Below, piece after piece: positions 33,737-49,616 of a stretch of DNA of 64,000 nt (position 1 is the stretch's first letter; every line of letters begins with the position of its first letter). A program made the translations under genes and the position numbers. The DNA comes from Acidimicrobiia bacterium (lineage in GTDB: Bacteria; Actinomycetota; Acidimicrobiia; Spongiisociales; UBA5794), in assembly GCA_036396535.1 (NCBI GenBank), contig DASWKR010000030.1:1-64000 (forward strand), read 5' to 3'. The notes under the pieces are model-generated. The model saw only the letters and a list, made by a program, of their open reading frames with translations, made no database searches and was not told the DNA's origin.

Positions 33737-35455
33737 ATGAGCGAGACATTGTCCGGAGCCGAAGCCCTCGTCCGAGCCCTCGAGCTCGAGGACGTAGAGG
33801 TGATCTTCGGCGTGCCGGGTGGCGCCATCCTCCCCGCGTACGACCCGATCCTCGACAGCAAGATCCGACACGTCCTCGCCAGGCACGAGCAGGGCGCAGG
33901 GCACATGGCTTCCGGATACGCCCACGCCACTGGACGCGTCGGCGTCGTGTGGGCGACGTCGGGCCCCGGTGCGACCAACCTGATCACCGCCCTCCAGGAC
34001 GCCCTCATGGACTCCGTCCCCGTGGTCGCCATCACCGGCCAGGTGTCCACCAAGTCGATCGGCATGGATGCGTTCCAGGAGGCGCACACGTGGGGCATCT
34101 CGATGCCCGTCACGAAGCACAACTACCTGATCACCGATCCGGACGACATCCCGGACGTCATCCGAGAGGCATTTCACCTGGCGGCCACCGGGAGGCCGGG
34201 CCCCGTGCTCGTCGACATCCCGAAGGACATCCTCTCCGGGCAGATGACATGGCATCGCGCAGGACAGATCAACCTCCCCGGCTACAAGCCCTCCGTGAAA
34301 GGCCACCCGAAGCAGGTCAAGGCCGCCGTGGCAATGATCCACCAATCGGCGAGGCCGGTCCTCTACTGCGGTGGTGGCGTGATCAGGGCGGACGCCTCCG
34401 CCGACCTGAGGGCGTTCGCAGAGCTCGCCAACACCCCGGTCGTGACCACCCTGATGGCACGAGGGGCGATGCCCGACTCTCATCCTCTCTGCCTCGGTAT
34501 GCCCGGGATGCACGGCAATTACACGGCCATCACGGCGATGCAGCACGCCGATCTGCTCATCGCCGTCGGCGCACGCTTCGACGACAGGGTGACCGGGAAC
34601 CCGAAGACGTTCGCCCCCAACGCCAAGATCATCCACGTCGACGTCGATCCCGCCGAGATCGGCAAGGTGCGCGCCGCCGACATCCCGATCGTGGGCGACG
34701 CCAAGTCGGTGCTCGAGCAGCTCCACGCGGCCATGGTGAAGGTGCTCGACGGCGACCAGCCCCCTCCTCGGGCGGCGTGGTTGGAGACCCTCGACACCTG
34801 GCAGAGAGACCACCCGCTGGCATACGAGCAGGATCCGGACGGCCCGATCCTGCAGCAGTACGTCATCGAGCAGCTCCACAAGCTCACAGAGGGCAACGCC
34901 GTCGTGGTCGCCGGGGTCGGCCAGCACCAGATGTGGACGTCGCAGTTCTGGGGCTTCGAGCGCCCGAGGACCTGGATCAACTCAGGGGGGCTCGGGACGA
35001 TGGGCTTCGCCCTCCCGGCTGCCGTCGGTGCCAAGGCGGCCCTCCCCGAGGAGCTCGTGTTCGCCATCGACGGTGACGGATGCTTCCAGATGACGTGCCA
35101 GGAGCTCATCACGGCTTCCGTCGAGAACATCCCGATCAAGGTGGCCGTCATGAACAACGGCTCCCTCGGGATGGTCAAACAGTGGCAGCGTCTCTTCTAC
35201 AACGAGCGCTTCAGCGCCGTCGACCTCACCAGCCATACCCCGGACTACGTCAAGCTCGCCGAGGCGATGGGGTGCGTCGGACTGCGGGCCGAGCGCCCGT
35301 CTGATGTCATACCGACCCTCGAGAAGGCACTGGCGATCAACGACAAGCCCGTCGTCATCGACTTCGTGTGCGACCCGGATGCGATGGTCTTCCCGATGGT
35401 TCCGGCAGGCGGATCGAACGACGACGTCATCCTGAACCTGGACCAGCTGCAATGA
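33737..35455 (+). CDS. ilvB: Acetolactate synthase, large (catalytic) subunit
   Basis: The 572 residues match acetohydroxyacid synthase: ThDP-activating Glu51 in [33 protein letters not shown], and the C-terminal ThDP-Mg motif [12 protein letters not shown] followed by [13 protein letters not shown]. It makes acetolactate or acetohydroxybutyrate in Val, Leu and Ile synthesis. AGGAG lies 8 bases before the ATG. Expression is under the leader attenuator and the adjacent ilvN encodes the regulatory subunit with a 4-base overlap (ATGA). Confidence 0.96.
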
Positions 35456-35961
35456 ACCACCTCATAAGCGTCCTGGTCGAGAACAAGCCGGGGGTGCTGG
35501 CGAGGATCTCGTCGATGTTCGCCCGGAGAGGCTTCAACATCCACTCGCTCGCCGTCGGCCCGACGATCGATCCCGAGATGTCGCGGATGACCGTGGTCGT
35601 CGACGGCCCGGAGATGGAGCAGATCATCAAGCAGCTCTACAAGCTCGTCCACGTGGTCAAGGTGACGGAGCTGACCCCGGGAGAGAGCGTCGAGCGAGAG
35701 GTGATGATGCTGCGAGTCAGCACGGAGACCGCCAAGCGCAGCGAGTTGCTCGACGCCGCCGGCATCTTCGACGCCAGCGCCATCGACGTCGGCGTCGACT
35801 CGATAACGTTCGAGCTGACGGGCGACCCTGCCAGGCTCGCCGATTTCCTCGAGCTGATGCGGCCGTACGGCATCCTCGACATCGTCAAGTCCGGAAGGAT
35901 CGCCCTCAAGCGCGACGCCAAGTCGCGGGACACGAAGAAACCGAAGCTCAAATCGGCTTGA
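35452..35961 (+). CDS. ilvN: Acetolactate synthase, small (regulatory) subunit
   Basis: The 169 residues start [20 protein letters not shown], an ACT domain that binds valine, followed by [15 protein letters not shown] and a second domain (about 80-160). It gives feedback control to IlvB. The start overlaps the ilvB stop, ensuring coupled synthesis. The C-terminus is basic ([14 protein letters not shown]). No ilvC follows; leuA does. Confidence 0.95.
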
Positions 35962-35990
35962 ATGACCGACCGGCTCAGCAGGCGGGAACG

Positions 35991-36083
35991 ATGCAGCGCA
36001 TGACGCGACACCAGACGCAGACGTCGAGAGATCTCGACGGCGCGGCGCGGCGCTCCGCCCTCCTCGGTCTGCTCCTTATGTAG
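35991..36083 (+). CDS. leuA leader peptide (leucine-rich)
   Basis: An ATG preceded by GGCGGGA opens a 30-residue frame ending SALLGLLLM and a TAG. Five of the last seven residues before the final Met are Leu (CTC CTC GGT CTG CTC CTT), so ribosomes would pause here when charged leucyl-tRNA is scarce. An internal ATG at 36000 is an alternative start. Located 30 bases after ilvN and 74 before leuA; typical for leucine-controlled attenuation in actinobacteria. Confidence 0.8.
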   Translation: MQRMTRHQTQTSRDLDGAARRSALLGLLLM

Positions 36084-36149
36084 CCGGGCGGGCGCCCTCT
36101 CGCGCTCGACCCGGCACGCCGCAGATCCCGACCACTCTGCACAAGGAGC
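36071..36149 (+). promoter_or_regulatory. Predicted RNA switch sequestering the leuA ribosome binding site
   Basis: GCTCCTT (36071-36077), lying within the leader Leu codons, is perfectly complementary to AAGGAGC (36143-36149), which contains the leuA Shine-Dalgarno sequence. A further stem GCCGGG (36083-36088) / CCCGGC (36110-36115) lies between. There is no U-run, so control would be at translation: stalled ribosomes would keep the site open, whereas normal termination at 36081 would let it fold shut. Confidence 0.65.
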
Positions 36150-36156
36150 GACCCGA

Positions 36157-37683
36157 ATGAGCGACAGGCTGATCATCTTCGACACGACACTGCGAGACGG
36201 CGAGCAGGCGCCCGGCATCGCCCTCTCCCCCGACGACAAGGTGGCGATCGCCCATCAGTTGGCCCGCCTCCGGGTCGACGTGATCGAAGCTGGCTTCGCG
36301 GCGTCCTCGCCCGGAGACTTCGAAGCGGTGGCCAGGATCGCCAACGAGGTCCGCGGTCCCGTCATCGCATCGCTGGCGCGCACCCACCCGGACGACATCG
36401 ACAAGGCAGCCGAAGCGCTCAAGGGGGCAGACAGCAAACGCATCCACGTGTTCATGTCGACGTCGCCGATCCACATGGAGCGGATGCTCCGGATGACCCC
36501 CGAGGAGGTGATGAAGTCGATCGTCGAAGGCGTCGCCCGCGCCAAGCAGTACGCAGAGGACATCGAGTTCTCGCCGCAGGATGCCACCAGGTCGGACCCG
36601 GACTTCGTGATCGCGACGTGCCGGGCGGCCGTCGAGGCGGGAGCGACCACGATCAACATCCCGGACACCGTCGGCTACGCCATCCCCGAGGACTTCGTAG
36701 CCCTCATGTCCCGGGTGTATGCCGACGTGCGCGGCAAGAACGAGGACGTGACCATCTCGACGCACTGCCACAACGATCTCGGTCTGGCGGTCGCCAACTC
36801 GCTATCTGCCATCAAGGCCGGGGCCCGCCAGATCGAAGGGGCGATCAACGGCATCGGAGAGAGGGCCGGTAACACGTCGACCGAGGAGATCATCATGGCG
36901 GTGAAGACCCGCCAGGACTACTTCGGGGTCGAGATCGCAGCAGACACCACCCAGATCTACGACACGTCCCGGCTCGTGTCGAGCCTCACCGGCTACCCGA
37001 TCCAGTACAACAAGGCCGTCGTCGGGCGGAATGCCTTCTCGCACGAGTCCGGGATCCATCAGCACGGTGTGCTGCGCGACCGCGAGACGTACGAGATCAT
37101 GGATCCGGCTTCGGTCGGCCAGGCGAGCCGCATCGTGCTCGGGAAGCATTCGGGAAGGGCCGCCTTCTCTGACGCCCTTCGCAAGCTCGGGGTCTCGCTC
37201 GAGGACGAGGACTTCGCCGGGGCGTTCGCCCGCTTCAAGGAGCTCGCCGATCGCAAGGGCGAGATCAGCGAGGAAGGCATCCTGGCGATCGTCGAGGAGA
37301 ACGCCCCCATCAGGGGGTCGGTTCTCCAACTGTTGAGTGTCCACGTGTCGGGTGGCAGTGACGCACTCCCCGTCGCAGCCGTCAAGGTGGCGAGGGGCGA
37401 GGAGATCATCGAGGCGACCGCCCACGGAGACGGCATGGTCAACGCGGCGTTCGTCGCCCTCCAGGACCTCTTCGGGATCGCGGCGACGCTCGTCGACTAC
37501 AGGGTCAGCCCGCTCACGACCGGGGCGGACGCCATGGCCGAGGTCAATGTGGTGATCCAGGTCGGCTCGGAGACGTTCTCCGGTCGAGGAGTCTCGACGG
37601 ACGTCGTCGAGGGCTCGACCAGGGCATTCGTCGCCGCGCTCAACAAGGCGAGCATCGATCACGGCGCACTGGAGGGAGGTTGA
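36157..37683 (+). CDS. leuA: 2-isopropylmalate synthase
   Basis: The 508 residues show [20 protein letters not shown] at the start, [16 protein letters not shown] with the metal-binding His pair (about 200-215), and a C-terminal leucine-sensing domain (about 385-505). It condenses acetyl-CoA and ketoisovalerate, the first committed step of Leu synthesis. The length is like Escherichia coli LeuA rather than the longer (about 640 residues) mycobacterial form. AAGGAG precedes the ATG, and a leucine-rich leader lies upstream. The stop overlaps leuB. Confidence 0.95.
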
Positions 37684-38744
37684 TGGCCCACATCGTCCTC
37701 CTCCCGGGCGACGGAATCGGACCGGAGGTGCTCGCCGAGGCCCGCAAAGTGCTCGTGGCCGCGGCGCACGGTCACCACCTCTCGCTCGTCTTCGAGGAGC
37801 GCCCGATGGGCGGCAACGCCATAGACGACTTCGGCGACCCTCTCCCCGAATCGACGCTAGAGGCGTGCCGGGCGGCGGACGCCGTGATCCTCGGCGCCGT
37901 CGGAGGCCCGAAGTGGGACGACCCCGCCGCCAAGACGAGGCCGGAAGCAGGGCTGCTGCGGCTCCGCAAGGAGCTCGGGCTGTTCGCCAACCTGCGCCCC
38001 ATCAAGGGCCATGCCCAGCTCATCGGAGCGTCGCCACTTCGCAGGGAGATCGTCGAAGGGGTCGACATCCTGTTCTTCCGGGAGCTGACGGGTGGGATCT
38101 ACTTCGGGCCCTCGTCCGTGTCCGCAGACGGGACGAGCGCGTCGAGCACCATGGTGTACTCGCAGGGCGAGGTCGAGCGGATCGTCCGGCTGGCAGCCCA
38201 GGCCGCCAGAGAGCGCAGTAACAAACTCACTTCCGTCGACAAGGCGAACGTGCTCGAGGTCTCCCGCTTGTGGCGCCGCGTGGCGGCGGCCATCATGGCC
38301 GACGAGTTCGCCGACGTCGAATACGAAGTCGTGCTCGTCGACGCCATGGCGATGCACCTCATCGCCCGGCCGAGGGATTTCGACGTCGTCGTCACCGGCA
38401 ACCTGTTCGGGGACATCCTCACCGACGAGGCGTCGATGCTGCCGGGCTCGATGGGGATGCTGCCGTCCGCCTCGCTCGGCTCGAACGGCCCCGGCTTGTA
38501 CGAGCCGATCCACGGATCGGCGCCCGACATCGCCGGAAAGGGGACCGCCAACCCGCTGGCGGCCATCCTGGCGGCGGCGATGGCGCTGCGGCACTCGCTC
38601 GGAGCGGTGGAGGCTGCGAGCGCCATCGAGGTCGCCGTCGATCGCGTGCTGGACGACGGGCTCAGGACCGTCGACATCGCAGCCGGCGGACCGAGCGTCT
38701 CGACCATTGAGATGGGTGACGGGGTGGTCGCCGCTCTCGGCTGA
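37683..38744 (+). CDS. leuB: 3-isopropylmalate dehydrogenase
   Basis: The ATG at 37683 overlaps the leuA stop (TGATG) and gives 353 residues. [15 protein letters not shown] at the N-terminus, the [10 protein letters not shown] segment and [30 protein letters not shown] are the family signatures. It oxidises 3-isopropylmalate with NAD, the last dedicated dehydrogenase step in leucine synthesis. leuC and leuD are not in the window. A palindromic repeat follows the stop. Confidence 0.95.
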
Positions 38745-38752
38745 GGAGCCTC

Positions 38753-38804
38753 CCGTTCCTGCGTACCACCCTCGCACCACTGCGATGCCGGGACGCCGGA
38801 ACGG
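38753..38804. repeat. Intergenic inverted repeat, copy 2
   Basis: Arms CCGTTC / GAACGG with inner GCGT / ACGC and TCGCA / TGCGA pairs, directly after the leuB stop. Same architecture as the elements at 22274-22326 and 49631-49682. Confidence 0.75.
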
Positions 38805-38853
38805 ATCGTCAATCCCCCTCAGGGGCAACGGGCATCCTGCCGAAAACCCTTGG

Positions 38854-40311
38854 ATGAGGTCCCGGCCCTTCACTCGGGTATGCCTGTTCGCCGCCTTCGC
38901 CGTGCTGGCGGCTTCGTGCGGGAGGAGCGGCCCTGCGCCGCGCCAGCCGACGACGACCACCGAGCCTCCGGCCAGGGCGGTGACGGAGCTCGCCCCGACC
39001 CCGACGTCGATCGGCGACCCGCTCGCCCCTGGTCTCGGCAACGGCGGGTACGACGTGGTCGCATACGACCTGGCCGTCCAGTGGAAGCCGAAGCTCGCAA
39101 CGGCACGGATCACCGCCACCGTCGAGGCAGAAGCGACGGAAGCCCTCGACACGTTCACGCTCGACTTCGCCGAGTTCGCCATCCAGTCGATCACGGTGAA
39201 CGGCGAGGACGCCAAGGCCGACCTCGACCGATCCAAGCTCACGGTGACGCCTGCCTCGCCCATCGCAGCGGGTGACACCTTCGTCACCGAGGTGCGGTAC
39301 GTCGGACCGCCCGGCCTTCACCGATCGGACCTGGCTCGACACGAGGTCGGGTGGACGATCACCGATACGGGAACCGTGTTCGTCACGGCCGACCCCGACG
39401 GAACCCACCTCTGGGCCCCCGTAAACGACCATCCCCTCGACAGGGCGACCTGGAGGATCGAGATCTCGGCGCCCACGCCGCTGTTCGGGATCGCCAGCGG
39501 CAACATGACGAACCGAGTGCAAGGCCCCGAGACGACCACCACCGAGTGGACGACGAGCCAGCCGGTCGGCCCGCAAGCCATCACGCTGGCAATCCGCGAC
39601 GCAACGCTCATGGAGCCGAAGACCTCGTCGGGCGTCGACCTCAGGAACCTCCTCCCGGCGGCCATGGCGGACGACCCACCCCCGGTCCTCGGGAAGGTGG
39701 ACGCCATGATCGACTTCCTCGAGCAACGGCTTGGTCCATTCCCGTACGACTCGTACGGGATCGCCGTCATCGACGGCATCTCCCCTCCCCTCCCAGCGAA
39801 CACCTGGTCGATCCTGACGGCCGAGCAGCTCGCCGACGAGAACCAGGCAGAGCTGCGAATCGTCGCCGATCTGGCACGACACTGGTTCGGCGACAGCGCG
39901 ACACCCCGCACCTGGTCGGAGGTCTGGCTGTCGACGTCGCTCCCGCTCTATGCGAGCTGGATGTGGCTCGAGAACCAGAACGGGTCGAAGTCGATCGAGG
40001 TCGTCGCCAGGGTGGCGCGCTCCGAGGTGAAGGACTCGGCGTGGCAGGCCCCCAACGACCCGATCGAGGGCGACATCTACGGCACCGCGACCTTCCTGTA
40101 CGGGGCGGTGTACCTCCACGCCTTGCGACTGAAGATCGGTGACCGGGCGTTCTTCGATCTGCTGCGAACCCTCCACAGTGACCACAAGGGTGACGTGATC
40201 ACGACGAGCGACCTCGTGTCGGAGACGTACCGGGCGTCGGGCCAGGACCTGCGGTTCTACATCGACGCCTGGTTCGCCGCCGATCCGCTTCCCGGCTTCC
40301 CGGACGCATAA
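38854..40311 (+). CDS. Catalytically inactive M1-peptidase-like lipoprotein
   Basis: The 485 residues begin with a lipoprotein signal (VLAASC). The M1 N-terminal beta-domain and catalytic-domain topology align with the adjacent gene, but the zinc site is gone: where the neighbour has VHELAHQWFGD this protein has VADLARHWFGD (337-347), replacing both His ligands and the catalytic Glu. The downstream Glu of WLNEGF is STSLP, and the substrate-binding GAMEN-like motif is also altered. I infer a pseudoenzyme, perhaps a binding or accessory protein. Preserved length and fold argue against decay. Confidence 0.88.
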   Translation: MRSRPFTRVCLFAAFAVLAASCGRSGPAPRQPTTTTEPPARAVTELAPTPTSIGDPLAPGLGNGGYDVVAYDLAVQWKPKLATARITATVEAEATEALDTFTLDFAEFAIQSITVNGEDAKADLDRSKLTVTPASPIAAGDTFVTEVRYVGPPGLHRSDLARHEVGWTITDTGTVFVTADPDGTHLWAPVNDHPLDRATWRIEISAPTPLFGIASGNMTNRVQGPETTTTEWTTSQPVGPQAITLAIRDATLMEPKTSSGVDLRNLLPAAMADDPPPVLGKVDAMIDFLEQRLGPFPYDSYGIAVIDGISPPLPANTWSILTAEQLADENQAELRIVADLARHWFGDSATPRTWSEVWLSTSLPLYASWMWLENQNGSKSIEVVARVARSEVKDSAWQAPNDPIEGDIYGTATFLYGAVYLHALRLKIGDRAFFDLLRTLHSDHKGDVITTSDLVSETYRASGQDLRFYIDAWFAADPLPGFPDA

Positions 40312-40337
40312 CAGCACCCGTTGCGCGGCGAACGCCC

Positions 40338-40343
40338 TACATT
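40338..40343 (+). promoter_or_regulatory. Putative leaderless -10 element (TACATT)
   Basis: TACATT ends 6 nt before the ATG at 40350, which has no Shine-Dalgarno sequence. It implies a separate promoter for the second peptidase gene. Confidence 0.55.
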
Positions 40344-40349
40344 CGACGC

Positions 40350-41879
40350 ATGTCACGGCGTGCGGCTCCTCTGACGGTCCTCTTGGCGCTCGCCGTCTCC
40401 GGCTGCACGTCGGCTGCTCCGACGACGACCGCCGTCCCGGAGGCGCCGGCCGCTGCGGCGACATCGACAACCGCACCGACGACCACCATCCCCGCGTCCA
40501 CCACCACGACAACGACCACGACGACCACCATGGCTCCAACGACCACAGCGGTCGGGTTCGCAGAGGTAGAGGGGATCGGTGACTCCTACTTTCCGACGCT
40601 CGGCAACCCCGGCTACGACGTCGCCAACTACCACCTCGACCTCACGTTCGACCCGGCGACGGGGACGCTCACCTCCCTCGTGACGATCGCCGCCGCCGCC
40701 ACCAGCGACCTCGCCCGGTTCAACCTCGACTTCATCGGGTTCGAGATCACCGAGTTGACCGTCGACGCCGCCCCGGCGCTCTGGGACAGGACGACCGAGG
40801 AGTTGACCGTCGAGCCGCCGGCGCCGATCGCAGCAGGCGAGGACTTCGTCGTGACGGTCGCCTACCACGGCAAACCGGTCGCCACGACGTCTTCTGCGAT
40901 CCCCCTCAACGTCGGATGGTCGACCGTCAACGGCCAGAGCTACGTCGTCGCCGAGCCGGATGCCGCCCGGACCTGGTTCCCGTGCAACGACCATCCGGCG
41001 GACAAAGCGGCGTTCACCTTCCGGATCACCGTCCCGGACGGGACGACCGCGGCGGCGAACGGCGAGCACATCGAGACCGTCACGGACGTCGGCGCCTCGA
41101 CGTGGGTCTGGGAGCTCGACGAGCTGATGGCGCCTTACCTGGCGACGGTGGTGATCGGGGACTTCTCGATCGTCCCCGACGACTCGGGGCCGGATATCGG
41201 CGGGGTCGCCATCCGCAACGTGCTGCCGCCAGACTTGGCGGCGGCACCACCGGGCGCCCTCGACCAGCAGGCCGAGATGATCGAGTTCTTCTCGGAGCGC
41301 TTCGGGCCATACCCGTTCGACGAGTACGGGATCGCCATCGTCGACGGGTTCCCGGCAGCCCTCGAGAACCAAACCCTCTCGGTGTTCGGCCGGGGGTTCG
41401 CAGAGTCTCCCGACTTCGAGATCGTGCTCGTCCACGAGCTCGCCCACCAGTGGTTCGGCGACGTCGTCTCTCTCGCCCAGTGGAAGGACATCTGGCTCAA
41501 CGAAGGCTTCGCCTCGTACGCAGAGTGGCTGTGGATCGAGGCCCAGTTCGGGGAGGAGGCACTCGCTCTGGGAATCGAGCAGGAGCGCCAGGCATTCGCG
41601 GCCTTCGGACTTCCCCCTCCCGGGTCTCCTCCAGCGGGCGACCTGTTCAACGGGTCGGTCTACCGCGTCGGTGCCATGACGCTGCACGCCCTCCGCCTCA
41701 CGGTCGGCGACGAGAACTTCTTCGACATCCTGCGGTCGTACGTCGACCGCTTCGCAGGCGGCGTGGCATCGACGGATGACTTCATCGGCGTGGCGAGCGA
41801 GGTGTCGGGCGAGGACATGCGGCCTCTCTTCGAAGCATGGCTCTATGGCGACGAGATCCCGGCGTTCCCGACCCCCTGA
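40350..41879 (+). CDS. M1-family metallopeptidase lipoprotein
   Basis: It encodes 509 residues with a lipoprotein signal (AVSGC at 15-19) and a Thr-rich linker (about 38-66) that should hold the enzyme off the membrane. The zinc site HELAH is at 362-366 with Glu385 in WLNEGF, and ALENQ (about 337-341) corresponds to the GAMEN aminopeptidase motif. It probably trims peptides outside the cell. It lies just beyond a catalytically dead paralogue and beside an oligopeptide ABC transporter operon, suggesting peptide scavenging. Confidence 0.92.
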   Translation: MSRRAAPLTVLLALAVSGCTSAAPTTTAVPEAPAAAATSTTAPTTTIPASTTTTTTTTTTMAPTTTAVGFAEVEGIGDSYFPTLGNPGYDVANYHLDLTFDPATGTLTSLVTIAAAATSDLARFNLDFIGFEITELTVDAAPALWDRTTEELTVEPPAPIAAGEDFVVTVAYHGKPVATTSSAIPLNVGWSTVNGQSYVVAEPDAARTWFPCNDHPADKAAFTFRITVPDGTTAAANGEHIETVTDVGASTWVWELDELMAPYLATVVIGDFSIVPDDSGPDIGGVAIRNVLPPDLAAAPPGALDQQAEMIEFFSERFGPYPFDEYGIAIVDGFPAALENQTLSVFGRGFAESPDFEIVLVHELAHQWFGDVVSLAQWKDIWLNEGFASYAEWLWIEAQFGEEALALGIEQERQAFAAFGLPPPGSPPAGDLFNGSVYRVGAMTLHALRLTVGDENFFDILRSYVDRFAGGVASTDDFIGVASEVSGEDMRPLFEAWLYGDEIPAFPTP

Positions 41880-41899: not shown

Positions 41900-42841
41900 C
41901 TACTTGCTGCGCAGCTTCGGATCCAGGGCGTCGCGGAGCCCGTCGCCGATGAAGTTCACGCTGATGACCGTCAGCGAGATCATCAAGCCCGGCCAGATCA
42001 CCCGCATCGGCGTGATGTTGATGTAGTCCTTGGCGTCGAGGAGGAGCCGGCCCCACGTCGGGAAGTCGGACGGGAAGCCGAGACCGAGGAAAGACAACGC
42101 AGACTCCGTGATGATGGCGACGGCGACGCCGAGGGCGGCGGCCACCATCACGGGGCTCAGCACGTTCGGAAGGATGTGGCGGGCGACGATGTTGCGCCGC
42201 CTCGTGCCGATGCTCTGAGCCGCCAGCACGAACTCCTCCTCCTTGATCGACAACACCTCGCCTCGCACCACCCGGGCCGTCTGCATCCAGCTCGTGATCC
42301 CGATCACGAACACCACCAGGAGGAAGATGCCGGCCTCCGGGCCGAACCTCGCTCGCAGGGCGTCCCGGAACAGCATGATGATCACCAGCAACAGGGGCAG
42401 GACGGGGAGAGCGAGGAACATGTCGGTCAGACGCATCAGGGGTCCGTCGAGGCGCCTGAAGAACCCCGAGACGACCCCGATCGCCGTCCCGATGAAGACC
42501 CCGAGCAGCATCGCCGTCATCCCGACGGCCAGCGAGATCCTCCCGCCGATCATGACCCTGGCCGCGACGTCGCGGCCGAGGTTGTCGGTCCCCAGCAGGT
42601 GCCGCACCGAAGGGCTCAGGTTGGCGTTCGGCACGTCGATGGCGAACGGGTCCCACGGGTAGAAGAACGGACCGAGGAAGCTGGTCAGGACGATCAGCGT
42701 CAGCACGAACAGGCCAACGACGGCGCCCTTGTGGCGGCGGAACTGGCGCCTCACGTCGGCCCACAACGATCGGTGCTTGCCGTCGACGGCAATGCCGTCT
42801 ACGGCTGCCGCCTCCTCGATGCGCTCTTGTGTCGTAGCCAT
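41900..42841 (-). CDS. oppC: Oligopeptide/dipeptide ABC transporter permease (OppC/DppC type)
   Basis: The 313 residues have a short N-terminal tail, one isolated helix (about 37-58), the LLGTDNLGRDVAARVMIGGRISL motif and a five-helix permease domain. The EAA-type loop is visible at VLAAQSIGTRRRNIVARHILPNVL. With OppB it forms the membrane channel. It is the last gene of the operon oppD-oppF-oppA-oppB-oppC. Substrate may be peptides or nickel; not distinguishable. Confidence 0.93.
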   Translation of the reverse strand: MATTQERIEEAAAVDGIAVDGKHRSLWADVRRQFRRHKGAVVGLFVLTLIVLTSFLGPFFYPWDPFAIDVPNANLSPSVRHLLGTDNLGRDVAARVMIGGRISLAVGMTAMLLGVFIGTAIGVVSGFFRRLDGPLMRLTDMFLALPVLPLLLVIIMLFRDALRARFGPEAGIFLLVVFVIGITSWMQTARVVRGEVLSIKEEEFVLAAQSIGTRRRNIVARHILPNVLSPVMVAAALGVAVAIITESALSFLGLGFPSDFPTWGRLLLDAKDYINITPMRVIWPGLMISLTVISVNFIGDGLRDALDPKLRSK

Positions 42842-42868
42842 CCGCCTGCCTATTCGGTCGGTGGTCGG

Positions 42869-43882
42869 TCAGTCATATCGGATCCGGGGATCGAGCAAGC
42901 CGTACGTGACGTCGGCGAGGAGGTTGAACCCCACGGTGAGCACGGCGAAGATGAACGTCAGCGTCTGCACCATGGGTATGTCGGCACCCTGGATCGAGCT
43001 GATTAGCAGCTGGCCGAGGCCGTTGATCCTGAAGATCTGCTCGGTGATGATCGCCCCTGCGAAGATCCCGGGGATCTGGAGGGCGATGAGCGTCACGACC
43101 GGGATGAGGCTGTTGCGCAGCACGTGACGGATCAGCACCCGGTTCTCACGAAGCCCCTTGGAGCGCGCCGTGCGGACATAGTCGTCGTTGAGGTTGTCGA
43201 GCACGGACGACCGGGTGAAACGACTCAGCGCAGCCGCGTTGAAGAGAGACAGCACGGCCACGGGCATGATCATCTGTTTCACCTGGACGACGAAGCTGTC
43301 CCAATCGGTCACGGTGTGCGTCGTGTCGTAGAACGACGGGAACCACCCCAGGTAGACGCTGAAGATGACGATCGCCAGCAGACCGGTGAAGAACGTCGGG
43401 ACGGAGTAGCCGACCATCGAGACGAACGTCCCGACGTTGTCGAACGCCGAATACTGCTTGTAGGCAGATATGACCCCGACGGGGATGGCGATGACGATCC
43501 CGAAGATGAAAGCCAGGCCGAGGACCCAGAGGGTCTGCGGGATCCGCTGGATGATGATGTCGACGACGGGTGCCCGAGAAGACCACGACAGGAGGCGAGT
43601 CCTGTTGGCGCTGTCGCCGATGCTGACGTTGAAGATCTCCTCGATCATGTTGAGCGGCTCGGTGATGAACATCTGATTCGTCCACTTCACCCACCGGAAG
43701 AAGAACGGGTCGTTGAGCCCGAGCGTCTCCCGGATCCTCTCACGGGTCTCGGGTGGGATGGTCAACGGCAACGAGGCCGTCGGGTCGCCCGGCGCCAGGT
43801 CGAGGATGGCGAAGATGACGAAGCTGATCACGATCAGCGTCGGGATCGCGATCAGAGTTCTCCGAACGATGTATCGACCCAT
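42869..43882 (-). CDS. oppB: Oligopeptide/dipeptide ABC transporter permease (OppB/DppB type)
   Basis: The 337 residues start with MGRYIVRRTLIAIPTLIVIS, the OppB N-terminal helix, followed by LDLAPGDPTASLP and a permease domain; the loop TARSKGLRENRVLIRHVLRNSLIPVVT carries the ATPase-contact motif. It follows the substrate-binding gene after 86 bases containing a stem-loop, which may adjust permease level. Confidence 0.93.
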   Translation of the reverse strand: MGRYIVRRTLIAIPTLIVISFVIFAILDLAPGDPTASLPLTIPPETRERIRETLGLNDPFFFRWVKWTNQMFITEPLNMIEEIFNVSIGDSANRTRLLSWSSRAPVVDIIIQRIPQTLWVLGLAFIFGIVIAIPVGVISAYKQYSAFDNVGTFVSMVGYSVPTFFTGLLAIVIFSVYLGWFPSFYDTTHTVTDWDSFVVQVKQMIMPVAVLSLFNAAALSRFTRSSVLDNLNDDYVRTARSKGLRENRVLIRHVLRNSLIPVVTLIALQIPGIFAGAIITEQIFRINGLGQLLISSIQGADIPMVQTLTFIFAVLTVGFNLLADVTYGLLDPRIRYD

Positions 43883-43905
43883 CCGCCCCTGCCGTTTTCA
43901 GCGGA

Positions 43906-43937
43906 AGGGCCTCTCAGGATCACTCCCGAAAGGCCCT
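43906..43937 (-). repeat. Stem-loop between the binding-protein and permease genes
   Basis: AGGGCCT (43906-43912) and AGGCCCT (43931-43937) form a perfect 7-bp stem with an 18-base loop. It lies in the oppA-oppB gap without a U-run. Such hairpins commonly stabilise the upstream binding-protein mRNA or damp readthrough. Confidence 0.5.
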
Positions 43938-43968
43938 CCCATCATCCACGTCCGAGTGCGCGTCGCTG

Positions 43969-45804
43969 CTAGCTGCGCACCCAGTCCTCCACGTTCCAGT
44001 ACTCCGAGTCCCACCCGTTGACGGTCCCGTAGCCCTGCAGGGTGTTGGCGAAGGCCGACACCGATCCGCGCCACGTGAGCGGGATGATCGCTCCGCCCTG
44101 AACGATCATGTCGTTCAGCTGGATCGACAGCTCCTTGCGCTGGGCGAAGTCCGTCGTCCCCTGCAGCTCTGCATAGAGGGCGTCGAACTCGGGCCGCGAC
44201 CACCGGGGGATGTTCGAGCCGCCGAAGTTGTCGGCGGTGACGATCTGGTCGGTGACGTAGTTACCCAGGTACGTTTGCGGGTCGGGGCTCCCAGAGCCGT
44301 TGGTGTACATCTCGACGTCGGCGTAGAACTTCTGGTAGGTGTCCGGGCTGGCCGGATCGCCCCCGAAGTAGACGTCGGCGACGACGTTCTTCAGCTCTGC
44401 ATCGATTCCGATCTGGCTCCACCAGTCCTTGACCAGGTCCTGGGTCGTCTGCCGCACGGCGTTCGTCGACGTCTGGTAGAGGACGAACAGCGGGTCGCCG
44501 TCCGGCGTCTCGCGGATCCCGTCGCCATCGCTGTCGACGTAGCCGGCTCCCTCGAGGAGCGCGATGGCTCCCTCGATGTCCTGAACCAGGCAAGCGTCGT
44601 TGTTGGTGGACTGGCCACCCGTCTCCGTCTCGATCGGCCACAGGTTGCACGTTGACAGACCGCCATCGCCGTACGCCACATCCACGATCACCTGACGGTC
44701 GATCGCCATCGACATGGCGTTCACCACGGCCGGGTCCGTGAGGAACGGGTGCGGGTTCGCCCCGTCGAGGTACTCGGACCGGTCGGCCCCGAGGTCCGGG
44801 TCGGCGTTCGTCTGGTTGATGTCGATGCGCTCCACGTTCGAGGCGAACCCGGCATCGACGACGCCGAGCCCTGCCGCCTCCATGTTGGCGAGCACGACCG
44901 GGTCGACCTGCAGGTTCCAGGCGTAATCGGCCTCACCGAGCTCGAGCACGGACCGCGCCGCAGCCTCGGCGTCGCCGCCACCCTTGATGAGCACCTCTCC
45001 GAAGAACGGCTTGCCGTCGGCGATGCCCCGGTAGTTGGGGTTCAGCGCGTAGCTCGCCGTGTCGTTCGTGAGGAACTCCGTAACGGTGAACGGGCCGGTG
45101 CCCACGGGCGAGAAGTTCTCGTCCGTGCACTGCGCCGCGTTGGCGCCGACGCAATTCTCGAACTGCGCCTTCTGCAGGATCGGTGACTGATAGGTCACGA
45201 ATGCGTTGTACGGGAACGGCTGCGGAGAGTCGAACGTGACCAGGGCGGTCACTGGGTCGACTGCCTCGACGGCGGTGATGCCGGCGAAGAACGTCGACTG
45301 AGTGCAGTCGCTCGTCTGCGTGCAGTACTCCCACGTGAACACGACGTCATCGGCGGTCAGGGGTGTGCCGTCCGACCACGTGACCCCTTCCTTGAGCGTC
45401 CAGGTCACCGAAGTGAGGTCCTCGGACACCCCGCCGTTCTCGACGGTCGGGATCTCGGCGGCCAGTGACGCAACCAGCTCACCCTCGGGGCTGAACTCGG
45501 CCAGCGGCTCCAAGATGAGAGAGGCCGCCAGCAGTTCCTTGGTACCTCCGGACAGGAATGGGTTGAGTGTGGACGGCGCCTGCCATTGGAGCAGGGCCAA
45601 GAGGCCGCCCTCACCGGCTACGCCTCCGGTCGGCGGTGCTTCCGTGGTCGTCCCCGGCTCCGCCGTCGTGCCGGGCTCGCTGCTGGTTGTAGTTGATTCT
45701 CCGGGGGGCGTCGTGGTCGTGTCTTCGGCTCCGTCGTCGCCGCCGCACGAAGCGACGACGAGCGCCAGGACCGCGACCAGAGAGACCCATCTCCATCGTT
45801 TCAT
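43969..45804 (-). CDS. oppA: ABC transporter peptide-binding lipoprotein (SBP_bac_5 family)
   Basis: The ATG at 45804 follows GGAGG and gives 611 residues. A signal ends in the lipobox VVASC, and a Thr/Glu-rich linker (about 27-58) follows. The family-5 binding domain is visible (LVASLAAEIPTVENGG, TLKEGVTWSDGTPLTADDVVFTWEY, GTGPFTV). It captures peptides outside the cell and hands them to OppBC. Gly- and Asp-rich segments in the middle (VDSDGDGIRETPDGDP, about residues 425-440) look like a calcium-binding loop. Confidence 0.92.
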   Translation of the reverse strand: MKRWRWVSLVAVLALVVASCGGDDGAEDTTTTPPGESTTTSSEPGTTAEPGTTTEAPPTGGVAGEGGLLALLQWQAPSTLNPFLSGGTKELLAASLILEPLAEFSPEGELVASLAAEIPTVENGGVSEDLTSVTWTLKEGVTWSDGTPLTADDVVFTWEYCTQTSDCTQSTFFAGITAVEAVDPVTALVTFDSPQPFPYNAFVTYQSPILQKAQFENCVGANAAQCTDENFSPVGTGPFTVTEFLTNDTASYALNPNYRGIADGKPFFGEVLIKGGGDAEAAARSVLELGEADYAWNLQVDPVVLANMEAAGLGVVDAGFASNVERIDINQTNADPDLGADRSEYLDGANPHPFLTDPAVVNAMSMAIDRQVIVDVAYGDGGLSTCNLWPIETETGGQSTNNDACLVQDIEGAIALLEGAGYVDSDGDGIRETPDGDPLFVLYQTSTNAVRQTTQDLVKDWWSQIGIDAELKNVVADVYFGGDPASPDTYQKFYADVEMYTNGSGSPDPQTYLGNYVTDQIVTADNFGGSNIPRWSRPEFDALYAELQGTTDFAQRKELSIQLNDMIVQGGAIIPLTWRGSVSAFANTLQGYGTVNGWDSEYWNVEDWVRS

Positions 45805-45916
45805 GGTTTGCCTCCATGTGCCGGTGCGATCGACCGGCATGTCGCGAACGGTAACAGAATCCAGCAATCCGGACAGGGAAGACGCTCCCGGATCATGGCG
45901 ATCCAGCCGCGTCTTT

Positions 45917-46936
45917 TCACTTCGCGAAGTGGCATGCCACCCACCGGCCCGGCTCTAGTTCCCGCCACTCCGGCTTCTCGATCACGCACCGTTCCTGGGC
46001 GACGGGACACCTGGTGTTGAACGGACAGCCCGGAGGAGGGGTTGCCGGGCTCGGGATGTCTCCCTGGAGGATGATCCGCTTACGGGTCGCTTCCACCTTC
46101 GGGTCCGGCACGGGCACCGCCGACAGCAGAGCCATCGTGTAGGGGTGCTTCGGGTCGTTGTAGAGGGCGTCGACATCGGAGAGCTCCATGATCTTGCCGA
46201 GGTACATCACCGCGATGCGATCGGCGATGTGGCGCACCATGCTCAAGTCGTGCGAGATGAACAGATACGTCAAATTGAGTACGTCCTGAAGGTTCTCGAG
46301 GAGGTTGACGACCTGCGCCTGGATCGAGACATCGAGGGCGGCGATCGGCTCGTCGCACACGATGAAGTCTGGATTCAGCGCGATCGCCCTGGCGATGCCG
46401 ATCCGCTGACGCTGCCCACCCGAGAACTCGTGTGGGTACCGGTTGGCGTGCTTCGCTTCGAGGCCGACCAGGCTGAGCAGCTCTTCGATCCTCTGGCGCC
46501 GCTCCTTGCCCTTGGCCGTTCCGTGCTCCCTGAGGGGCTCGCCGACGATCGACGATACGGTCATCCTCGGGTTGAGCGAGGCGTGCGGATCCTGGAAGAC
46601 CATCTGCATGCGCGGTCGCAGCGTGCGGAGCCGCTCGCCTTTCGTGCTGGTGAGCACGACCCCGTCGAACGTCACGGAACCCTCGGTGGCGTGGTCGAGC
46701 TGGAGGATGACGCGTCCCGTGGTCGACTTACCCGACCCGCTCTCGCCGACCAGGCCGAGCGTCTCGCCACGATGGATGTCGAAGCTGACGCCGTCGACCG
46801 CCTTCACGGCCCCGACCTGCCGTCGGAAGACTCCCTTCATGATCGGGAAGTGCTTCTTGAGGTCTTTTACGCTGACCAGCACCTCGCGTCGAGACGCAGG
46901 TGGGGCGGGGGCGGCGCCCGGGGCGCTACGTTCCAT
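45917..46936 (-). CDS. oppF: Oligopeptide ABC transporter ATPase (OppF/DppF type)
   Basis: The 339 residues have Walker [10 protein letters not shown] (about 64-72), signature LSGGQ-type [15 protein letters not shown], Walker [13 protein letters not shown] and a C-terminal oligopeptide-specific extension with [14 protein letters not shown], a cysteine cluster often seen in this subfamily. It overlaps the oppD stop by 11 bases. Provides ATP energy for uptake. Confidence 0.93.
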
Positions 46937-47927
46937 CTCGTGGCCTGTTCAGCTCCGTGTCCCACCAGCAGGCGACCTTGCGGGTCTCCGAGATCTGCAT
47001 CAGCGGCGGGTTCTCGTTGCGGCAGCGCTCGAAGGCGTACGGGCAGCGGGGCTCGAAGGGGCAGCTCGTCGGGGGGCTGTAGAGGCTGGGAGGCTGGCCC
47101 TTGATGTTGACGAGCTCCTTGCCCTTCTGGTCGAGACGGGGAAGCGACCCGAGCAACCCTTGCGTGTATGGGTGCCGCGGCGTCTCGTACAGATCACCGA
47201 CCGTCGCCTCCTCGACGACCTGGCCTCCGTACATGACGATCACACGGTCGGCGATACCCGCCACGACACCGAGGTCGTGGGTGATCCACACCACGGCCGT
47301 TCCGAGCCGCTCCCGCAGCTCTTTGACGATCTCGACGATCTGGGCCTGGATCGTGACATCGAGCGCCGTCGTCGGCTCGTCGGCGATGATCACCTGCGGC
47401 GAGCACGCCAGGGCCACGGCGATCATGACACGCTGCCGCATGCCTCCCGAGAGCTCGTGCGGGAACGATTTGAGACGCCGCCGTGCCCCTGGGATCCCCA
47501 CGAGGTCGAGGAGCTCCACGGCCCGGGCCTCGAGTTTCTTATCACGCAACCGCTGATGGATCTTGAGCGACTCCATGATCTGATAGCCGATCGTGAGCAC
47601 CGGGTTCAAAGAGGTCATGGGATCCTGGAAGATGAAGCCGATCTTGCCACCGCGAACGGCTCGGAGGTCGTCTGCGTCGAGGGTGAGGAGATCCCTGCCT
47701 TCGAAGATCGCCTCTCCCGAGATGATCTTCCCTGGCGGTATGGGGATGAGGCGTAACAGCGACATCATCGTGACGCTCTTCCCGGAGCCGCTCTCGCCGA
47801 CCACTCCGAGGAACTCGCCTCTGTTCAGCGTGAAGCTGACGCCGTTGACGGCGTGAACCGTTCCATCCTGGGTATGGAACTGCGTATGTAGGTCCGAGAC
47901 CTGGAGTACTGGCTGCGGCTCGCTCAC
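46926..47927 (-). CDS. oppD: Oligopeptide ABC transporter ATPase (OppD/DppD type)
   Basis: The 333 residues show Walker [11 protein letters not shown] (about 40-49), [16 protein letters not shown] signature, Walker [11 protein letters not shown] and the [14 protein letters not shown] cysteine-rich end. It is the first gene of the opp operon, starting with a GTG at 47927. About 200 bases without genes separate it from the divergent gnd gene; both promoters must lie there, but for this one I see no clear -10 box. Confidence 0.93.
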
Positions 47928-48131: not shown

Positions 48132-49616
48132 ATGGCCGAGAACTCGAATGCGACTGCGGCCTCCGCAGGCGCCGCAGCCGACATCGGGATCTACGGGCTG
48201 GCCGTGATGGGCAGCAACCTGGCGCTCAACATGGCGGATCACGGCTTCACGGTTGCGGCTGCCAATCGCACCGTCGAGCGAGTCGACGAGTTCGTCGCCG
48301 ACGAGGCCGCCGGCAAGCCGATCGTCGGTGCCCGATCGTTGGAGGGCCTCGTCGCCGCCCTCGAGAAGCCGCGGCGAGTGATGCTGATGATCAAGGCGGG
48401 CCGGCCGGTCGACGACACGATCGACACGCTCATCCCGATGCTCGAACAGGGCGACATCATCATCGACGGGGGCAACTCCCTCTACACGGACACGATCCGC
48501 CGCACGAGCAAGGTCGAAGCCGCCGGCCTCCGCTACGTCGGCACCGGCGTGTCGGGCGGCGAGGAGGGCGCCCGGCATGGACCCTCTCTCATGCCGGGCG
48601 GGTCCCCGGACGCCTGGGAGCACGTTCGGCCGATCTTCCAGGCGATCGCCGCCTCGGTGGACGGCGTCCCGTGCTGCGACTGGGTCGGGCCGAACGGCGC
48701 CGGCCACTACGTCAAGATGGTCCACAACGGCATCGAGTACGGAGACATGCAGGTCATCGCCGAGGCCTACGACATCATGCGCCGCGGCTTGGGCATGTCG
48801 TATCCCGAGATGGCCGACGAGTTCGCCGCCTGGAACGAGGGCCGGCTCGACTCGTACCTCATCGAGATCACGGCAGCCATCCTGCGCCACGCCGACGACG
48901 GAGGGGGCCCCCTCGTCGAGAGCATCCTCGACGCGGCAGGCCAGAAGGGGACTGGCAAGTGGACGGTGATCTCATCGATGGAGACCGGCCAGCCCGTGTC
49001 GCTCGTCGCCGAGGCCGTCTACGCCAGGATCCTGTCGGCCCTGAAGGAGCGGCGCCGCGAGGCGGCCGCCGTGCTCGAAGGACCGGAGCCATCTCTCCAA
49101 GGTGAGCGCGCCGGCGTGCTCGCCGACCTCGAGCACGCCCTCTACGCGTCGAAGATCGTTTCGTACGCCCAGGGGTTCATGCTCCTCGACGCCGCCGACG
49201 ACGAGCACGAGTGGGGGCTCGACTTCGCCTCGATCGCCTCGATGTGGCGCGGCGGTTGCATCATCCGGTCTCGGTTCCTCTCCGACATCATGGGGGCGTA
49301 CCGGAGCCATCCCGAGACGCGCAGCCTCCTCACGATCCCGTTCTTCGTCGACGAGATCCACGCCGCCCAGGGAGGGTGGCGCCGCACGGTGGGGCGGGCG
49401 GTCACCGCCGGGATCCCGGTGCCCGCATACTCGGCGGCGCTTGCGTTCTACGACGGCTACCGATCCGAGCGGCTCCCCGCCAACCTGCTGCAGGCGCAGC
49501 GGGACTACTTCGGAGCCCACACGTACGAACGAGTCGACCGGCCACGCGGCGAGTACTTCCACACCGACTGGACCGGCACGGGGGGCGACGTGTCTGCGAC
49601 CACCTACAACGCCTGA
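48132..49616 (+). CDS. gnd: 6-phosphogluconate dehydrogenase (decarboxylating)
   Basis: The 494 residues carry the Rossmann motif GLAVMGSNLALNMA, ANRT for NADP preference, IDGGNSLYTDT, the substrate loop GTGVSGGEEGARHGPSLMPGG and the catalytic VKMVHNGIEYGDMQ. It converts 6-phosphogluconate to ribulose-5-phosphate and NADPH in the oxidative pentose phosphate pathway. The N-terminus has about 15 extra Ala/Ser-rich residues. A palindromic repeat follows the stop, between convergent genes. Confidence 0.96.
   Translation: MAENSNATAASAGAAADIGIYGLAVMGSNLALNMADHGFTVAAANRTVERVDEFVADEAAGKPIVGARSLEGLVAALEKPRRVMLMIKAGRPVDDTIDTLIPMLEQGDIIIDGGNSLYTDTIRRTSKVEAAGLRYVGTGVSGGEEGARHGPSLMPGGSPDAWEHVRPIFQAIAASVDGVPCCDWVGPNGAGHYVKMVHNGIEYGDMQVIAEAYDIMRRGLGMSYPEMADEFAAWNEGRLDSYLIEITAAILRHADDGGGPLVESILDAAGQKGTGKWTVISSMETGQPVSLVAEAVYARILSALKERRREAAAVLEGPEPSLQGERAGVLADLEHALYASKIVSYAQGFMLLDAADDEHEWGLDFASIASMWRGGCIIRSRFLSDIMGAYRSHPETRSLLTIPFFVDEIHAAQGGWRRTVGRAVTAGIPVPAYSAALAFYDGYRSERLPANLLQAQRDYFGAHTYERVDRPRGEYFHTDWTGTGGDVSATTYNA

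Follow-up and report, generated by a model that had tools for sequence, protein, structure and literature searches.

In M1 enzymes, the N-terminus of the bound peptide is held by the glutamate of the GAMEN-like loop and by a glutamate that serves as zinc ligand. We know of no M1 enzyme of known structure that needs an inactive homologous subunit, and the M1 pseudoenzymes known to us come from eukaryotes. TAF2 is a eukaryotic M1 homologue without activity, and both TAF2 and Tma108 are intracellular proteins of the four-domain eukaryotic type. Our search of open-licence papers returned no bacterial M1 pseudopeptidase; inactive M1 homologues are already known in eukaryotes, and a bacterial one would be new. 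According to PMC11266112, the M1 pseudopeptidase Tma108 uses its substrate pocket to bind nascent chains. In the M16B family, active and inactive homologues form pairs, such as TTHA1264/TTHA1265 and SPH2681/SPH2682 (PMC11266112; PMC12731061).

The stretch of DNA analysed here (the window, 64,000 nucleotides in full) contains two intact, co-directional open reading frames separated by 38 bp. The original prediction described this region (38854-41879) as a tandem M1 pair with a first member of inactive type and a second of active type, and the reading frames, Pfam matches and motif alignment agree with it. The features are as follows.

37680-38744, + strand: leuB, the conserved neighbour upstream of the M1 gene across the family
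38854-40311, + strand: M1 pseudoenzyme gene, encoding a predicted 485 aa lipoprotein with an N-terminal M1 beta domain and a pseudo-catalytic domain, without the C-terminal ERAP-like domain
38917-38919, + strand: pseudoenzyme lipobox Cys22 (FAAFAVLAASC)
39787-39801, + strand: PLPAN (residues 312-316) in place of the GAMEN-like ALENQ loop, by alignment
39865-39879, + strand: ADLAR (338-342) in place of HELAH, with both zinc His and the catalytic Glu gone, by alignment
39925-39939, + strand: WLSTS (358-362) in place of WLNEG, with the third zinc ligand Glu replaced by Thr361, by alignment
40093-40095, + strand: Phe414 in place of the catalytic Tyr, which is invariant in 42 of 42 aligned actives
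40350-41879, + strand: active two-domain M1 metallopeptidase lipoprotein, 509 aa, predicted from sequence
40404-40406, + strand: active enzyme lipobox Cys19
41358-41372, + strand: active enzyme ALENQ (337-341), the GAMEN equivalent, by alignment
41433-41447, + strand: active enzyme HELAH (362-366), by alignment
41502-41504, + strand: active enzyme Glu385, third zinc ligand, by alignment
41661-41663, + strand: active enzyme Tyr438, the catalytic Tyr, by alignment
41900-47927, - strand: operon for an opp ABC transporter, with permeases, OppA and two ATPases; among the genomes compared, only the window's has it here, and it is outside the conserved unit
48132-49616, + strand: gnd (6-phosphogluconate dehydrogenase), which in several relatives follows the M1 gene as a conserved neighbour; opp intervenes here

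The two proteins are 35% identical. Peptidase_M1 (PF01433) is matched with 45.3 bits by the first and 108.2 bits by the second (Pfam cutoff 27.7), and the N-domain PF17900 with 50.9 bits by the second and 25.7 bits by the first, the latter just under the cutoff of 25.8. Both carry signal peptides of lipoprotein type (...LAASC22 in the first, ...AVSGC19 in the second), so that the lipoprotein signal claimed for the first gene is indeed present. Its lipobox Cys recurs in all three known pseudoenzyme sequences, for which SPII processing is predicted. Both proteins look expressible; a promoter and terminator scan returned no element.

The claim that the first gene retains the fold is supported by modelling. 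A single-chain AlphaFold2 model of the pseudoenzyme reached a mean pLDDT of 90 and a pTM of 0.85, and its best fold match in Foldseek was the M1 enzyme of Deinococcus radiodurans (M1dr; TM 0.81/0.90, 26% identity), which is also the best PDB match at the sequence level (5e-39); TAF2 is a weak PDB match in the sequence search. Together with the Pfam scores, the predicted structure places the first protein in M1 as a homologue and by fold. M1dr (PDB 6a8z, 6iff-6ifg, 6koy-6kp1) has the same two-domain M1 architecture without a C-terminal domain; it differs in possessing HELAH...E and the catalytic Tyr, all of which are absent from the pseudoenzyme. Judged by its residues, the first protein lacks the features of an active M1 peptidase, namely the zinc site, the GAMEN-like loop and the Tyr.

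The second protein contains HELAHQWFGD, WLNEGFASY, ALENQ and the catalytic Tyr, while the same segments of the first read ADLARHWFGD, WLSTSLPLY, PLPAN and Phe. Compared with the active twin and the other actives, and in the numbering of the twin, the first protein shows the replacements H362->A, E363->D, H366->R, E385->T and Y438->F, and A337-L-E339-N-Q341 has become P-L-P-A-N; with the exception of N340, the columns concerned are 95-100% invariant among actives. The reported loss of both zinc His, the catalytic Glu and the GAMEN-like motif from the first gene, all kept in the second, is therefore correct (ADLAR/PLPAN versus HELAH/ALENQ), and the losses extend further, to the catalytic Tyr and a YL pair of the N-domain. 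The losses were counted over 66 columns in which 42 active relatives are at least 95% invariant, a residue being scored as lost when it was gone in all three pseudoenzyme sequences (that of the window and two orthologues). By this count, 13 of 20 invariant positions were lost in the four catalytic segments, versus 3 of 46 elsewhere (Fisher p = 1.4e-6). Two of these three form the YL pair (Y263, L264), which we infer to lie near the active site.

The HExxH-x18-E zinc site is missing in all three sequences (ADLAR/WLST in the window, SDLAR/WLST and RGLVR/WLSA in the orthologues), the GAMEN-like loop reads PLPAN, LLPGH and GLGAN versus AL-E-(N/T)-Q in actives, and the catalytic Tyr is Phe throughout. 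At the positions that hold the peptide N-terminus, the loop Glu has become P/P/G and the zinc-ligand Glu T/T/A. From the known M1 mechanism, neither M1 chemistry nor the usual M1 mode of peptide binding should be possible for the pseudoenzyme, because the zinc ligands, the general-base Glu, the Tyr and the N-terminus-binding Glu are gone. Within the former catalytic segments, W318, R342, H343, S360 and F414 are invariant in the trio. Conservation among the three sequences is no higher in these segments (13/33) than in the remaining catalytic domain (66/178), and therefore a new pocket under tight conservation is not established.

With a profile built from the pseudoenzyme trio we searched 50 family genomes, 138 genomes from the order, and samples from the class (395) and the phylum (396). 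Members were found in only three genomes, all of them drafts, which represent three genera of one family: the window's own (G000), G017 (about 42% identical) and G019 (about 50-51%); no further member appeared in any of the four sets. The three score 865-904 bits and the next best sequence 438, a gap that arises partly by construction, as the profile was built from the same three proteins. Searching genome contigs with the single pseudoenzyme protein returned only distant active M1s. Among 154 distinct actinobacterial M1-like ORFs, HExxH...E is found in 137 by pattern and in another 14 by eye, and is missing only from the trio; such a conversion is thus rare, and this is its one case in the survey. 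The losses recur in relatives, the orthologues in two other genera having the same ones, so that homologues with an intact HExxH, named in the original prediction as a refuting outcome, did not turn up.

The trio is monophyletic (support 100/99, and 100/100 without the long-branch rows). Its members have in common the replacements H366->R, Q367->H, N384->S and Y438->F at (near-)invariant positions, as well as W at the mostly-Leu position 343. These point to one loss event, and the catalytic loss most likely happened once, before the three genera split. Common ancestry of the three genomes, suggested by a shared ilvC replacement (see below), is countered by two observations: the active gene of G019 groups in the tree with genus g12, which is devoid of the pseudoenzyme gene, and a species tree from IlvB, LeuA and LeuB did not resolve the three genera. 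The gene may have been lost in g12, or transferred. An origin by tandem duplication at the leuB-gnd locus, which would put the pseudoenzymes and the seven nearest actives in one clade, was not rejected in a topology test (p-AU 0.42) but is not proven. One very divergent M1 homologue, L041 (G030:C133:21-1265, - strand), joined the pseudoenzyme clade with support 89/78. It keeps HELAHQW, but its third-ligand region is altered (ASGWLFEGLATY), the GAMEN position reads ALAAPM, and the branch is very long; its membership was dropped as a long-branch effect, and the clade is unchanged without it.

Pairwise dN/dS was not used, because dS is saturated; instead, the likelihood of a codon model was computed over coarse steps of omega and kappa. 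For the pseudoenzyme trio, the best omega lies at 0.02-0.1 (lnL -4080 to -4089), while lnL falls to -4164 at omega = 0.5 and to -4250 at omega = 1, so that omega = 1 fits worse by about 170 lnL units and relaxed selection (dN/dS near 1), named beforehand as an outcome that would refute the idea, is rejected. The picture is similar for the active trio, whose best omega is 0.01-0.05. Relative to the random level, the differences within the pseudoenzyme trio amount to 0.39-0.52 at codon position 2 and 0.79-0.86 at position 3. End branches of 0.47-0.98 in the pseudoenzyme clade, against 0.36-0.45 in the actives, nevertheless point to a roughly twofold faster evolution. The codon patterns show purifying selection on the pseudoenzyme gene since the loss. 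That systematic loss in an intact frame reflects a selected non-catalytic role, as was first suggested, is borne out by the losses common to the orthologues and by the low omega, and the first gene very probably encodes such a protein.

In relatives, the active M1 gene is the next gene downstream of leuB, closing an ilvB-ilvN-(ilvC)-leuA-leuB run, and gnd follows it in several of them (G017, G019, G022, G004, G001, G024, G006); from gene order, the leuA-leuB-M1-gnd locus is taken as ancestral. This position of the active M1 lipoprotein gene is seen across much of the family (window 36157-41879; L034, L035, L036, L038, L039, L044, L077-L085), and stably joins a predicted surface aminopeptidase gene to those for leucine biosynthesis, often with gnd next. 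Two of these M1 matches, L034 and L035 (in G022 and G004), contain one in-frame stop each (1 TGA, 1 TAG), near the match end and 3' of the catalytic motifs. In the three genomes with the pseudoenzyme, ilvC is missing from the ilvB-ilvN-leuA-leuB cluster (window 33737-38744), and a distinct ilvC is found elsewhere (L200 = G000:C30:112589-113596; L201, L202). The replacement genes are 75-77% identical among the trio and 64-70% identical to the in-cluster IlvC of relatives, which suggests common ancestry.

Conservation of the pair itself was the other point that the original prediction put up for checking. The genes are adjacent in the window and in G017, where the order is leuA-leuB-pseudoenzyme-active-gnd; in G019, the active gene keeps the leuB-gnd locus and the pseudoenzyme gene lies on a different contig (contigs of 193 and 180 kb), beside genes whose products have N-termini resembling a molybdenum hydroxylase cluster. 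Because these copies are on different contigs, tandem linkage is not obligatory. The proposed partnership with the nearby opp transporter, a complete peptide-type operon in the window, did not survive comparison. The window's genome is the only one in which the M1-gnd order is interrupted by opp. Close OppA homologues (54-57%) occur in G011, G027 and G070, all without the pseudoenzyme gene; g12 genomes have an OppA close to that of the window and no pseudoenzyme gene, and G019, which has the gene, yielded no OppA close to the window's (best E 1e-19). As opp occurs at the locus only here and OppA does not track the pseudoenzyme gene, the link is not supported; it was rejected on synteny and phyletic pattern, and the neighbourhood is a local coincidence. 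An M1-opp neighbourhood does occur independently elsewhere, since a distant active M1 gene of bacterium isolate RSA11 (L047:39-3627) adjoins opp permease and ATPase genes.

Several readings of the first gene have to be weighed against these data. A decaying duplicate that is open by chance would account for the faster evolution and for the absence of the gene from most relatives, and is nonetheless barely credible: three genera have the gene intact, with lipobox, fold core and non-catalytic invariants preserved, its losses concentrate on the catalytic site instead of being spread out, and omega and position-2 conservation are those of a constrained gene. The codon models rule out a relic pseudogene. 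It is highly improbable that the protein is still an enzyme, whether by a metal bound at a new site or by some other chemistry in a rebuilt pocket. On the former HExxH helix, D339 and H343 have an i, i+4 spacing, and the five residues invariant in the trio would fit such a pocket; however, D339 is Gly in G017 and the third-ligand position reads T/T/A, which leaves no conserved metal-binding set and speaks against a D339/H343 metal site. Peptide capture in the inherited substrate site, with delivery to the active enzyme or to the opp transporter, is unlikely. The modelled fold with its N-domain and the downstream opp operon speak for it, but the peptide capture of the original prediction, if in the normal M1 mode, is weakened by the loss of both Glu that hold the N-terminus, and delivery to opp by the distribution of that operon and of OppA described above.

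The most serious competitor is that the pseudoenzyme acts as a non-catalytic partner or regulator of its active twin, in a lipoprotein heterodimer of subunits of about 50 kDa on the membrane, in which the inactive subunit might shape the cleft or present substrate, by analogy with M16B pairs. The genes are adjacent and co-directional in the window and adjacent in G017, both proteins carry lipoboxes, the active gene is encoded in all three genomes with the pseudoenzyme, as a partner role would predict, and M16 pairs of an active and an inactive member, encoded in two-gene operons, are known in prokaryotes (PMC11266112; PMC12731061). Against it stand the separate contigs of G019, the 32 family genomes with an M1 match and no pseudoenzyme gene, the weakness of a 3/3 co-occurrence when M1 is found in 35 of 50 genomes, and the self-sufficiency of structurally known M1 enzymes noted at the outset. 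We regard this reading as possible but doubtful, and slightly more doubtful still the specific form in which a zinc-less surface paralogue complexes with or regulates its tandem twin in an M16B-like manner that evolved independently in the bacterial M1 fold.

The best explanation overall, to which we assign a probability of roughly 0.55, is a selected M1 pseudoenzyme of single origin that binds rather than cuts. The sequences show that the two-domain surface M1 peptidase of the leuB-gnd locus has a paralogue that lost the zinc site, the catalytic Glu, the Tyr and the N-terminus loop, and that purifying selection has since kept this paralogue as a predicted extracytoplasmic lipoprotein. Through its cleft and outer faces, the zinc-less scaffold could engage a ligand or protein at the cell surface, with the old pocket perhaps partly refilled by W318, R342, H343, S360 and F414. 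The separate contig in G019, the 32 M1-only genomes and the lack of a close OppA in G019 indicate that the role is not tied to one neighbour. For an independent binding or scaffold role the odds are about even; we think it somewhat more likely than that of an obligate subunit of the active twin, since the unlinked G019 copy tips the balance. The system offers a clean natural experiment in the turn of a metallopeptidase scaffold to binding, with an active twin in the same cell, the solved M1dr and many relatives without the pseudoenzyme.

Among the systems compared, the active twin is the closest, being like the pseudoenzyme in domains, lipobox, linker and locus; it differs in its full catalytic set, its slower evolution and its presence in most of the family at leuB-gnd. 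The M16B pairs and the alpha and beta subunits of MPP likewise place an inactive and an active metallopeptidase homologue side by side. They belong to an unrelated family and fold, and their proven complexes depend on the inactive subunit, whereas for the pair described here a complex is hypothetical and linkage is not obligatory. Tma108 keeps nearly all active-site residues, whereas the window's pseudoenzyme has lost all of them, and there is no sign that the losses in TAF2 or Tma108 descend from a common event with those described here. In both of these eukaryotic proteins, which are regarded as non-catalytic, the M1 fold has been reused for binding, as we propose for the bacterial pseudoenzyme.
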